64,000 nucleotides of DNA from Palaeococcus pacificus DY20341. GTDB taxonomy: Archaea > Methanobacteriota_B > Thermococci > Thermococcales > Thermococcaceae. The stretch covers positions 1,710,480 to 1,774,479 of the forward strand of contig NZ_CP006019.1 in NCBI RefSeq assembly GCF_000725425.1, in the 5' to 3' direction. Position 1 is the first letter of the stretch. Each line of letters begins with the position of its first letter. The notes beneath the pieces are model-generated. The model saw only the letters and a list, made by a program, of their open reading frames with translations. It did not search any database and had not been told where the DNA came from. Made by a program: the position numbers and the translations under genes. Positions 13,647 to 27,904 of this stretch are shown here, one piece after another.

Positions 13647-15020
13647 TCATGGATTTGCCGCAATAAATTCATTGGTGTACTCCTTAACTACCTTGTACAG
13701 TATTAATAGTCCCAATAGGTTGGGTATTGCCATAAGTCCATTCATCATATCTGAGAATGTCCAAACGTTTTCCAAGACTGTTGTTGCACCAATGTAGATG
13801 AAGATAACGAAGAGCAAGTTGTAAAGTAAGTGAAGCTTTGGATACAGCTTAGCGAACTTTTCAGGGTCTTTTTCAATCCATTTAGCCAAGTAAAGCACAT
13901 TTTGCCTTCCATAGAATGACCACGCCAAGACGGTCGAATATGCAAAGAATATAACACCTATTATGACCATCACTTCTCCAGCGTGTCCAAAAGCTCTTGC
14001 AAATGCCTCTTGTGTTAATGCAGTGCTCGTTTTGTCAGTTTGCCAAGCTCCAGTTGCAACAATTGAGATTCCGGTTAATGAACAAATTATGAGTGTGTCT
14101 ATAAGTGGGCCAAGCATTGCAACGTGAGCTTGTCTTGATGGGTGGTCGGTTCTTGCTGCGGCGTGGGCTAAAGTTGCAGTTCCAAGACCAGCTTCGTTTG
14201 AGAAGAGACCTCTAGCAACACCCCATCTTATCGTCGTTCCTACTGCTCCACCAGCTACTGCACTTCCAGTAAAAGCATCCCTAAATACCAATGAGATTGC
14301 ACTTGGTAACTGTCCAGCAAACTTTATCCATACTCCAACAGCGAATATAAAGTAAATTATTGCCATAAATGGAACCAGTGCCTCTGTGACTTCACCAATT
14401 CTTTTGATTCCTCCAACAATAACCACGAATGTCAAAAATGCAAATAGTGCTCCTGTAGCCCAGTTAGGAACGCCAAACGCAACATCCATTCCTAAAGCGA
14501 GGGAGTTGGCTTGTGTCATGTTTCCAATTCCAAATGCTGAAATTGCCGCAAATATTGCAAAGAGAATTCCCATGGTCTTTCCTAAACTACCTCCTACGCC
14601 CTTTTCGAGGAAGTTGAAAGTTCCACCAATCATGGTTCCATCGGGTAGTTTGTCTCTGAATGCAACACCAAGCAATCCTTCTGAATACCTCGTTGCCATT
14701 CCAACTAAAGCGGTGACCCACATCCAGAACAGTGCTCCGGGACCACCGAGGTGAATTGCCGTTGCAACACCAGCGATATTTCCAATACCAACCGTTCCTG
14801 CGATAGTAGCCATTAAAGCCTGGAATGGAGTAATATCTCCCTCACCGGTCTTTTTCCTACCTTCAAAGAGGGTAAATTTAATCGACCATCCAAGCCTCCT
14901 GAACTGTATTCCCCCGAGAGCTATTGTTAGGAATAGTCCCGTACCAACAAGCAAAACCATCATAGGGGGACCCCAAACCACGCCATCAAGCCAATTAATA
15001 AAGTCCATTATGGCACCCAT
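13647..15020 (-). CDS. alanine/glycine:cation symporter (AGCS family)
   Basis: Sodium- or proton-driven importer of alanine or glycine in the cytoplasmic membrane. The 457-residue protein has about 11-12 hydrophobic segments and the family signatures GPGALFWMWVTALVGMATRYSE, ATIAGTVGIGNIAGVA and GLFSNEAGLGTATLAHAAART. GGAGGTG precedes the ATG. The downstream class III PLP enzyme starts 44 nt after this stop, so the pair probably forms an import-and-conversion operon. A 218-base gap to the guide RNA holds its promoter (AATATATTTG on this strand). Confidence 0.95.
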   Translation of the reverse strand: MGAIMDFINWLDGVVWGPPMMVLLVGTGLFLTIALGGIQFRRLGWSIKFTLFEGRKKTGEGDITPFQALMATIAGTVGIGNIAGVATAIHLGGPGALFWMWVTALVGMATRYSEGLLGVAFRDKLPDGTMIGGTFNFLEKGVGGSLGKTMGILFAIFAAISAFGIGNMTQANSLALGMDVAFGVPNWATGALFAFLTFVVIVGGIKRIGEVTEALVPFMAIIYFIFAVGVWIKFAGQLPSAISLVFRDAFTGSAVAGGAVGTTIRWGVARGLFSNEAGLGTATLAHAAARTDHPSRQAHVAMLGPLIDTLIICSLTGISIVATGAWQTDKTSTALTQEAFARAFGHAGEVMVIIGVIFFAYSTVLAWSFYGRQNVLYLAKWIEKDPEKFAKLYPKLHLLYNLLFVIFIYIGATTVLENVWTFSDMMNGLMAIPNLLGLLILYKVVKEYTNEFIAANP

Positions 15021-15205: not shown

Positions 15206-15214
15206 TATATATAA
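15206..15214 (+). promoter_or_regulatory. TATA box of the guide RNA / coiled-coil transcript
   Basis: TATATATAA at 15206-15214 places the transcription start at about 15235-15239, exactly where the C box of the guide RNA begins. No better promoter exists between it and the coiled-coil gene. Confidence 0.6.
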
Positions 15215-15235
15215 TGCGCAAAACTTATACCCTAT

Positions 15236-15290
15236 GGAATGATGAGTCTGGAGCCCCCTGATTGATGATGAGGTTTCGCGGGGCTGACCG
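15236..15290 (+). ncRNA. C/D box 2'-O-methylation guide RNA (dual guide)
   Basis: All four boxes are present with canonical spacing: C box ATGATGA 15239-15245, 12-nt guide, D' box CTGA 15258-15261, 3-nt spacer, C' box ATGATGA 15265-15271, 12-nt guide, D box CTGA 15284-15287. GG before the C box can pair with CC after the D box as the terminal stem. Such RNAs bind L7Ae, Nop5 and fibrillarin and direct ribose methylation at the target base paired to the fifth guide nucleotide before D or D'. The D' guide (GTCTGGAGCCCC) would target GGGGCUCCAGAC at its C; the D guide (GGTTTCGCGGGG) would target CCCCGCGAAACC at the first G. Confidence 0.88.
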
Positions 15291-15299
15291 GTGTTAAAG

Positions 15300-15566
15300 A
15301 TGCTCAAGAAAAGAGTTTGCAAAGACCTCTATGAAGAAATTGAACGGCTTGAAAAGTCAATTATTGAATTAGAGGATGAGATAATTATACTCAAAGCCCA
15401 GCTAAAAGCAAAGACTGAGGAAGTAAATAGCCTAGCAATAGAAAATGCAAACTTAAGGTACAAGTTAGAACGACTGCAAAAAACTTACAGCCAGATGGTT
15501 GAGATACTCAAAAAAATTAAGTTCCCTATAATTCTGCTAGACGAGGATAGCGAAAGCGAGAAATAG
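15300..15566 (+). CDS. small coiled-coil protein
   Basis: An 88-residue protein that is almost entirely a predicted coiled coil, with heptads from about residue 8 to 75 (ERLEKSIIELEDEIIIL, then YKLERLQKTYSQMVEILKK) and an acidic tail DEDSESEK. No catalytic motif is seen. The ATG at 15300 follows CCGGTGTTAAAG, whose GGTG begins 2 nt after the D box of the guide RNA; a GTG at 15291 is the alternative start. The gene has no separate promoter, so it must be read from the transcript that contains the guide RNA. Function is unknown. Confidence 0.75.
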   Translation: MLKKRVCKDLYEEIERLEKSIIELEDEIIILKAQLKAKTEEVNSLAIENANLRYKLERLQKTYSQMVEILKKIKFPIILLDEDSESEK

Positions 15567-15828: not shown

Positions 15829-18558
15829 ATGTCAATGGACATGGGCACAAGAATGTTCAAGGAGGAAGGATGGATAAGGAAGACCTGTAAGGTGTGTGGG
15901 AAGCCGTTTTGGACGCTCGACCCAAATAGAGAGACCTGTGGAGATCCTCCCTGTGATGAGTACGAGTTCATAGGAAAGCCGGGAATACCGAAGAAGTATA
16001 CACTCGAAGAGATGCGTGAGGCGTTCTTAGGCTTCTTCGAGCGCAATGGTCACGGTAGAGTAAAACGCTATCCTGTCCTACCAAGATGGAGAGACGATGT
16101 TTTACTTGTAGGAGCTTCAATAATGGACTTCCAACCATGGGTTATTAGCGGAGAGGCTGAGCCTCCAGCGAACCCCTTAACCATCTCCCAACCATCAATT
16201 AGGTTCACTGATATAGACAACGTTGGAATAACCGGAAGACACTTCACCATATTTGAAATGATGGCACACCATGCTTTCAACTATCCCGGAAAGCCAATAT
16301 ACTGGATGGATGAAACCGTAGAGTATGCCTACGAGTTCTTTACAAAAGATTTGGGCATGAAAGGGGAAGATATAACTTTCAAGGAGAACCCATGGGCAGG
16401 CGGAGGAAACGCTGGACCTGCATTTGAAGTGCTCTACAAGGGGTTGGAGGTCGCTACGCTCGTTTTCATGCAGTACAAGAAAGCCCCTGAAAACGCACCA
16501 AAAGAGCAAATTGTCGAGATCAAAGGCGACAAGTACGTTCCAATGGAAACTAGGGTTGTTGATACAGGCTACGGTTTAGAGAGATTAGTTTGGATGAGCC
16601 AAGGAACACCAACGGCTTATGATGCTGTTTTAGGCTACGTTGTAGATCCCTTAAAGAGAATGGCAGGTGTAGAGAAAATAGACGAGAGAATTTTAATGGA
16701 AAACTCCCGCTTAGCTGGAATGTTCGACATCGAGGATATGGGAGACCTCAAGGTTCTAAGGAGAGAAGTGGCAAACAAAGTGGGAATAAGCGTTGAGGAG
16801 CTCGAAAAAGCTGTTAGGCCATATGAGCTTATCTATGCCATAGCGGACCACACTAAGGCTCTAACCTTCATGCTGGCGGATGGTGTTATTCCATCAAACG
16901 TGAAGGCCGGCTATTTGGCGAGACTCCTCATTAGGAAGAGCATAAGACACATGAGGGAGCTCGGCATTGAGGTTCCACTCAGCGAGATAATGGCCATGCA
17001 CATAAAAGAGCTCCACAGGACGTACCCAGAGTTCAAGGAGATGGAGGATGTTATTTTAGACATAGTAAACGTCGAAGAGAAGCGCTATAAAGAGACGCTC
17101 AAGAGAGGAAGCGGCCTCGTTAAACGTGAGATTGCTAAGCTCAAGAAGCAGGGTAAGAAGGAGATACCCCTTGAGAACCTCATACTCTACTACGAGAGCC
17201 ACGGACTAACTCCCGAAATCGTCAAAGAGGTTGCTGAAAGTGAAGGAATAAAAGTCCATGTCCCAGACAATTTCTATACATTAGTGGCAAAGGAAGCTGA
17301 AAGGACTGAAGAAGAGGAGAAAGAAAAAGCTTTAGTAGACTTTGAGCTTGTCCAAGGCCTGCCCGACACGAGGACGCTCTACTACGAAGACCCATTCATG
17401 AAAGAATTTGACGCTAAAGTCCTGAAGGTAATCGAGGATTGGGTAATTTTAGACCAAACGGCCTTTTATCCTGAGGGTGGAGGACAGCCATGCGACTTAG
17501 GCGAATTAGAAGGAGTTGAAGTCCTCGATGTGCAGAAGATAGGAAAGGTAATCCTCCATAAGGTGAAAGATGCGAGCAGGTTTAAGGAAGGTCAAGAAGT
17601 GCACGGTAGAATTGACTGGGAGAGGAGAATCCAGCACATGAGGCACCACACGGGAACTCACGTCCTCATGGGAGCCCTAGTTAGGGTTTTAGGAAAGCAC
17701 GTTTGGCAGGCAGGTTCTCAATTGAACACAGATTGGGCTAGGCTTGATATAGCTCACTACAAGCGCATAAGCCAAGAGGAGCTTAGGGAAATTGAAAAGT
17801 TAGCCAATAAGATAGTTATGGAGAACCGCAAAGTCACTTGGGAGTGGCTTCCAAGAACAGAGGCAGAACAAAGGTATGGCTTTAGGCTCTACCAAGGTGG
17901 AGTTGTGCCAGGTAAAGTCATTAGAGTGCTGAATATTGAAGAGTGGGACGTCCAAGCATGTGGTGGAACTCACTTGCCACACACAGGCTTAATAGGACCA
18001 ATTAAAATCCTGAGGACAGAAAGGATACAAGACGGTGTTGAGCGTATAATCTTCGCCGCTGGTGAAGCAGCTATTAAATGGATGCAAGAGAGTGAGGCAA
18101 TAATAAAGAAGACGAGCGAAATCTTTAGAGTTCCCCCAGAGAAGCTCCCAGAGACGGCGCAAAAGTTCTTTGATGAGTGGAAGAAAGCTAGAAAAGAGGT
18201 TGAGAAGCTCAAGAAAGAGCTCGCAAAGCTCCTCATTTACGAGCTCGAAGCCAAAGTGGAGAAAATTGGAGAGATTGAGTTCATAGGAGACGTCGTTGAA
18301 GGAGACATTGATCACCTAAGAGAAGCAGCGCTCAAGCTAAAGAGGCCCAATAGGGTAATAGCAGTGATAAGTGAAGATACTGGAGCAGTAGTTGTGGCCG
18401 TTGGGGATGAGATAGAGCATAAGGCAGGCGAGCTCATAAGGGTGATAACCTCAATAGCCGGCGGTGGCGGTGGCGGAAAGAAGGACTTGGCCCAAGGAAA
18501 AATAAAGAATGTCCTGAAGGCAAGAGAAGCCCTTGAAGAATTAAAGAAGAGGCTTTAA
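15829..18558 (+). CDS. alaS: alanyl-tRNA synthetase
   Basis: Attaches alanine to tRNA-Ala and edits mischarged serine and glycine. The 909-residue protein begins with an archaeal zinc-binding segment (CKVCG...CGDPPCDEY), followed by the class II catalytic core ([26 protein letters not shown]). The editing domain has HTGTHVL at about residue 606 and the [10 protein letters not shown] motif. The C-terminal part ends with a coiled region and the glycine-rich [17 protein letters not shown] at 15829 follows AAGGTGATTAAA; the promoter element is ACTTTTAAGAG near 15770. The 262 bases before it hold nothing else recognisable. Confidence 0.97.
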
Positions 18559-27371: not shown

Positions 27372-27839
27372 TTACCAACCGCTTTTTCTGCTCCCAAAGA
27401 ATAAGTCTGAAAGCTTTGGAAGGTCTTCTACTCTAAATTCGTCGTAAAACTCTTTAGTTTGTTCAGGACTTAGTTTTTCAAGCTCATCCGGAACATCTTC
27501 GATGAGAGCGTACTCGAGATGATCTCCTTTTCTAGCTATCTCAAGAGTATAGATTTTCTTCTTTAAGCTCTGAGCCCTTTCAATTTCTCTAACAACGCCA
27601 GAAGTAAGCTTTCCAACTATGGCAATGGCAACGAACACATCTGACTCATCGATGAGGTGCTCCGTCGGCCTGAGCCCATACTTAGAGGGAACTATGATTT
27701 TACCCGGAGCTAAATGTTTTTCAATGATTCCAATGCAGTCCTTCTCAGTCTTCGTGTTGTATAAGAGGGTAGGCTCACTCATGTAAACAGTTATTCCTGC
27801 TTTCTCTTCCTCCTTTTTTCGCCTTAAAAAGCTAAACAT
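27372..27839 (-). CDS. uncharacterised protein, possibly nucleoside deoxyribosyltransferase-like
   Basis: A 155-residue protein. After a short basic start (MFSFLRRKKEEEKAG) it has VYMSEP, a stretch ESDVFVAIAIVGKLTSGVVREIERAQSLKKKIYTL, and an acidic helical tail. This strand pattern recalls nucleoside 2-deoxyribosyltransferase and TIR-like folds, but no catalytic residue can be fixed, so the label is tentative. ATG at 27839 follows GAGGTGATCATT; that ribosome site directly overlaps the end of a probable C/D guide RNA. The surface protein gene follows 41 nt downstream in the same direction. Confidence 0.6.
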   Translation of the reverse strand: MFSFLRRKKEEEKAGITVYMSEPTLLYNTKTEKDCIGIIEKHLAPGKIIVPSKYGLRPTEHLIDESDVFVAIAIVGKLTSGVVREIERAQSLKKKIYTLEIARKGDHLEYALIEDVPDELEKLSPEQTKEFYDEFRVEDLPKLSDLFFGSRKSGW

Positions 27840-27846
27840 AATGATC

Positions 27847-27904
27847 ACCTCAGGTGGGGATAAAACGTCTTCACCAGTCCGCTGGGATGACACTCATCAT
27901 CGGT
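27847..27904 (-). ncRNA. probable C/D box guide RNA
   Basis: On the minus strand: C box ATGATGA (27900-27894), 12-nt guide GTGTCATCCCAG, degenerate D' CGGA, 3-nt spacer, C'-like GTGAAGA (27874-27868), 14-nt guide, D box CTGA (27853-27850). ACC before the C box can pair with GGT after the D box. The outer boxes and the C-D' spacing are canonical; D', C' and the second spacing are not perfect, which lowers confidence. A TATA-like element centred at 27932 predicts a start near 27906, matching the RNA 5' end. Confidence 0.6.

Follow-up and report, generated by a model that had tools for sequence, protein, structure and literature searches.

A box C/D guide RNA lies directly upstream of a coiled-coil protein gene across the Thermococcales

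In the Thermococcales, an order of heat-loving archaea, the box C/D guide RNA sR23, of a kind that helps to modify other RNAs, is encoded immediately 5' of a gene for a small coiled-coil protein, and comparison of the genomes indicates that this layout is order-wide, old and conserved. The preliminary description of this DNA proposed that one transcript gives either a processed guide RNA or a translatable message. That proposal is supported here, and mutually exclusive fates of a single transcript are the probable explanation of the locus: in Thermococcus kodakarensis, the published circular form of the guide ends within the start codon region of the gene. The order-wide conservation of the pair, its fixed spacing, the natural cases of uncoupling and the correspondence in coordinates with a mapped guide end are new here; the pair was not found named in the main texts of the literature surveyed. 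If a transcript must choose between guide and message, the supply of modification machinery and the expression of a gene would be coupled without a dedicated regulator.

Organization of the sR23 locus

The window, that is, the whole 64,000-nucleotide stretch analyzed, belongs to a Thermococcales chromosome of 1,859,370 bp. Positions 15237-15289 (+ strand) match the Rfam covariance model of sR23 (RF01138), scoring 73.1 bits where the curated threshold is 45. The RNA carries the complete set of boxes, together with two guides of about 12 nt, in the order box C (ATGATGA, 15239-15245), D' guide (GTCTGGAGCCCC, 15246-15257), box D' (CTGA, 15258-15261), box C' (TGATGA, 15266-15271), D guide (GGTTTCGCGGGG, 15272-15283) and box D (CTGA, 15284-15287), all on the + strand. 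The locus is confirmed as a genuine sR23, far beyond chance, because the same model search detects the RNA in 90 of the 94 genomes of Thermococcales and in 0 of 14 control genomes.

Downstream, the GGTG ribosome site of the coiled-coil gene (15290-15293, +), read against a 16S 3' tail of GATCACCTCCT, begins 2 nt past box D, exactly as had been described. The ATG at 15300 lies 12 nt 3' of box D and opens a gene for an 88-aa protein (15300-15566, +; stop at 15564-15566). The next gene 3' is alaS, encoding alanyl-tRNA synthetase (15829-18558, +), which has its own GGTGA site, and the neighbor on the other side is divergent (13647-15020, minus strand).

A TATA box (TATATATA, 15206-15213, +) is the candidate shared promoter. 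Given a TATA-to-start distance of ∼23 bp (PMC4247193), transcription is predicted to begin at 15230-15237 (+). TATA-like octamers are enriched 20-40 nt 5' of box C, occurring at 75% of linked loci versus 40-43% of control windows further upstream, and a TATA-like match inside sR23 occurs at only 2 of 74 linked loci. The earlier claim that the gene has no other promoter holds at the level of sequence. The companion claim of a start at the C box is approximately right for the window, where the predicted start falls at or a few nucleotides before box C; as a small correction, the mapped start in T. kodakarensis lies 13 nt before it. By sequence, the arrangement expected of a leader is present: a promoter lies 5' of box C, and the open reading frame lacks one of its own. 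One mapped transcription start is reported in a relative.

Conservation of the guide-gene pair

The coiled-coil protein was found in 85 of the 94 Thermococcales genomes, as one copy each, and appears to be confined to the order, as no match was obtained in the genomes searched from other families of the class. Among 88 sR23 loci inspected for start-codon spacing, the distance from box D to the start is fixed in 75, at 4-6 nt (66 loci), 12 nt (8 loci) or 20 nt (1 locus); these 75 include the locus of G001 (spacing 5 nt), and the other linked-locus tallies use 74. The preliminary description had made conservation of this order in other Thermococcales a test of its proposal and a lack of it grounds for rejection, and conservation is what was found. 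The spacer bases between box D and the start vary, whereas the spacing hardly does, and the interval between the coiled-coil stop codon and alaS varies between 35 and 369 nt across loci, unlike the near-constant spacing to box D. No other in-frame start lies upstream in 63 of the 74 linked loci.

The coiled-coil gene has a median dN/dS of 0.21 over 128 pairs, indicating purifying selection; the protein is therefore real and constrained, and a chance open reading frame is ruled out. Simple inheritance of the alaS neighborhood is also ruled out as the origin of the pair, since at least 10 genomes keep sR23 and the coiled-coil gene linked without having alaS as the neighbor. The coiled-coil gene in turn stays with alaS where sR23 has moved away. 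Membership of the protein in the YabA family (PF06156) was considered and set aside as doubtful: it scores 30.2 against a cutoff of 30 in Pfam and 31.6 against a cutoff of 130 in NCBIfam, a match best read as shared coiled-coil composition. The earlier suggestion of autogenous control by this protein is without support.

A very similar 45-nt sequence precedes sR23 in G001, G015, G025, G073 and G076, which represent three genera; this similarity may reflect recombination or transfer of the sR23 locus.

Box D in the register of the ribosome site

Counted from the GGTGA register, the distance from the Shine-Dalgarno (SD) sequence to the start is 4-5 nt in 29 of 37 window genes, and the box D-to-start distance of the 4-6 nt class falls in the same register as this mode. 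In this majority class, the SD register is taken up by GGGG or GGAG plus the box D CTGA, a combination similar to GGAGGTGA apart from a mismatch; where the spacing is 12 nt, the GGTG 3' of box D fills it. Each of the 66 loci with 4-6 nt spacing lacks another SD and has GGGG or GGAG before box D; the variants GGGT, GGGA and GGAT are restricted to loci that are unlinked, dead or spaced at 12 nt. When box D is counted into the site, SD-like pairing reaches a mean of -7.55 kcal/mol versus -5.69 ± 2.35 kcal/mol for shuffled sequences, a modest gain. These patterns are suggestive of box D serving as the SD in most relatives, although the pairing energy is modest and the independent events are few. 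In terms of motif and distance, a box C/D motif, predicted to form a kink-turn, lies at or next to the SD or the start codon.

Displaced, lost and separate genes

At four loci (G029, G041, G067 and G069), the coiled-coil gene is shifted 130-850 nt downstream of sR23, and box D is immediately succeeded by a T-run (CCGTTT...). The shifted genes carry SDs of their own (-7.4 to -11.3 kcal/mol, versus a mean of -7.6 kcal/mol for the linked g3 loci) and, by inspection, their own TATA-like sequences. In three other genomes (G006, G008 and G010), which we infer to belong to the Pyrococcus group, sR23 and the gene occupy separate places and both are intact; in two of them the gene still adjoins alaS. 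G058, G087 and G078 keep an intact sR23, although their gene has suffered truncation, frameshift or loss. An intact sR23 thus persists in six genomes (G058, G078, G087, G006, G008 and G010) that have no functional copy of the gene beside it, and the guide is therefore independent of the gene. The linked gene, for its part, apparently relies on the promoter of the guide. Together, the linked, displaced and lost loci form a clean natural series for testing the coupling in the genetically tractable T. kodakarensis.

One sR23 copy (G076:C5:113101-113152) is apparently fused into the coding region of alaS, and part of a coiled-coil gene lies at a distance of 3.5 kb; this is possibly an assembly join.

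Predicted targets of the two guides

Both sR23 guides are complementary to stable RNAs, and methylation is predicted for each. The D guide is predicted to form 10 bp with 16S rRNA around position 340, counting the A at 15271. The D' guide hardly varies within the order. It is predicted to pair over 10 bp with the anticodon arm of tRNA-Trp (GGGCUCCAGA), so that methylation would fall on C32; the same residue of tRNA-Trp in P. furiosus is noted as a predicted C/D target in a passage that then qualifies the actual observation (PMC7668247). Against the genome's own 16S and 23S rRNAs, the D' guide gave nothing above 7-8 pairs. A target search by exact match with four G's missed tRNA-Trp, and the gene was found through its intron, which scores as Rfam sR40.

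The tRNA-Trp gene (L165 2397-2540) was not called by ARAGORN, and its intron matches both Rfam sR40 and sR3. This genome contains two complete 16S-23S rRNA loci (G000:C1:763188-767965, +, and 1524095-1528840, -).

The mapped guide in T. kodakarensis

A circular C/D RNA of 62 nt, alias Tko-sR50, has been reported in T. kodakarensis at 1371729-1371790 (±5 nt), with 176,232 small-RNA reads and a transcription start at 1371720 taken from Jaeger 2014 (PMC9014305, Table 1). In genome G023, the coordinates of Tko-sR50 enclose both sR23 (1371731-1371782) and the coiled-coil ATG (1371787-1371789), and the coordinates of sR52 in the same table fall on the sR55 of G023. From these matches at two loci, we infer that G023 is T. 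kodakarensis. Matched to the published coordinates, the mature 5' end lies 4 nt before box C, and the 3' junction lies ∼1 nt past the AUG (±5 nt), so that the mature guide takes in the start codon. On this reading, the circular guide includes the AUG of the gene and its production should destroy the start of the message, so that one transcript apparently cannot yield both products.

Probable two fates of one transcript and competing explanations

In the probable scheme, a single promoter would give a transcript starting just 5' of box C and running through sR23 into the coiled-coil gene. L7Ae, Nop5 and fibrillarin would bind the C/D boxes, leading to trimming and often circularization into a stable guide of ∼60 nt. 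With the guide 3' end reaching the start codon region, the message start would be removed, and capture would block translation. On an uncaptured transcript, which would serve as a read-through message, translation would begin at the ATG located 4-12 nt 3' of box D. The ribosome would use either an SD abutting box D, as with GGTG in the window, or, in most relatives, an SD-like GGRG-CTGA of which box D would form part.

Within this two-fate scheme, one sub-case is ordinary promoter sharing in a compact genome, with weak expression of the gene from untrimmed transcripts and no regulation, to which we give somewhat less than an even chance. Archaeal C/D RNAs often share the promoters of their neighbors, and 5' overlap lowered reporter expression, according to the account of Tripp 2017 given in PMC7994747; eleven snoRNAs lie in 5' UTRs of T. 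kodakarensis (PMC4247193), and several genomes retain an intact sR23 although the gene has decayed, disappeared or relocated. However, promoter sharing does not sit easily with a start spacing that is nearly invariant over the order despite variable spacer bases, or with a linkage that outlasts changes on both flanks.

The other sub-case is a true regulatory leader, in which free snoRNP core proteins on the box C/D kink-turn would cover the ribosome site and repress the gene, and the level of the protein would report the supply of core proteins. The preliminary description had cited repression by L7Ae at a leader kink-turn as known from engineered systems; the scope of the effect was understated, as natural archaeal l7ae mRNAs are reported to be repressed in this way by L7Ae (PMC5539422; PMC6298567). 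Regulation by L7Ae or the snoRNP at the sR23 leader is plausible. The overlap or abutment of box D and SD in the linked classes, and the invariant GGGG/GGAG before box D at loci with no other SD, favor a regulatory leader; on the other hand, the GGRG correlation represents few independent events, and the protein has no known snoRNP link. On balance, this sub-case is possible but rather less likely than not.

Outside the two-fate scheme, a single cut just past box D could release both the guide and a leaderless message starting at the ATG or within ∼5 nt of it. At the 66 loci with 4-6 nt spacing, the message would keep a leader of at most 8 nt, and ∼14% of T. kodakarensis messages are leaderless (PMC4247193). 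Such a cut is nevertheless improbable: a guide with the T. kodakarensis junction would destroy the start, the 12-nt class retains its GGTG site, and maturation is described as end trimming rather than a single cut (PMC7994747). Least probable of all is a hidden promoter for the gene inside sR23, unlikely given the scarcity of TATA-like matches there, or read-in from an upstream transcript, for which some genomes offer same-direction upstream genes but the window offers a divergent neighbor.

Relation to known systems

Several known systems resemble the sR23 pair. In 2014, guide RNAs were reported within 5' UTRs of Thermococcus (Jaeger 2014, PMC4247193); as at sR23, the guide lies in the leader and has to be released by processing, and regulation in cis through the kink-turn was proposed there as a possibility. 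The main text of that work does not name the sR23 pair, to which order-wide conservation, fixed spacing and the register of box D and SD are added here. Overlap of C/D RNAs with gene 5' ends, lowering expression, was reported in 2017 (Tripp 2017, as related in PMC7994747). In that account, the start codon likewise lies just 3' of box D, downstream expression is lowered, and decayed downstream genes are expected, which is what is observed at sR23 loci; such overlaps are said to be infrequent (7%) and to differ from one organism to another, whereas the sR23 pair is kept over the whole order.

The autoregulatory leader of L7Ae (Daume 2017, PMC5539422; Huang and Lilley 2019, PMC6298567) also places a kink-turn beside the SD of an archaeal 5' leader. 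There the bound protein hides the ribosome site, as it may at sR23. Unlike sR23, which is a complete C/D guide ahead of an unrelated gene, that leader is a single hairpin, has no guide product and belongs to the gene for L7Ae itself. The C/D RNA of the tRNA-Trp intron (sR50; the Rfam sR40 match in L165) is similarly carved from a two-product transcript. However, both of its products survive splicing, whereas the mapped end of the sR23 guide includes the start codon of the message.

Other guide RNAs with a leader layout

The sR23 layout is not unique, as sR55, sR58 and sR60 in the same genome are arranged alike. In the window, sR55 (27848-27904, minus strand) precedes an open reading frame ending at 27372, its box D CTGA running into GGTGATC-ATT-ATG. 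This layout, with box D overlapping a good SD and leading a different gene, recurs in the readable sR55 loci of other genomes. Both sR58 (L111 1506-1560, minus strand) and sR60 (L164 12040-12094, + strand) lie directly 5' of open reading frame starts, with SD-like sequences overlapping box D; sR58 was found by a pattern demanding a nearby ATG and is not an unbiased example. In sR36, sR41 and sR34, the leader layout is absent, and sR40 is the tRNA-Trp intron. A 20-kb genome sampling yielded only three further C/D RNAs, too small a number to estimate reliably how often such RNAs occupy leaders.

A bolder and rather doubtful generalization is that sR23, sR55, sR58 and sR60 form a conserved Thermococcales class of RNA switch. 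In such a class, box D would double as or overlap the SD, ribosomes and guide machinery would compete for each nascent transcript, and protein output would be tied to free snoRNP core proteins.

Two minor observations concern sR55. A second, weaker sR55-like match in G023 (G023:C1:963854-963913) corresponds to the published T. kodakarensis circular RNA sR31 (963853-963919). In many relatives, a CCACC located 5' of the sR55 box D could pair with a GGTGG located 3' of it.
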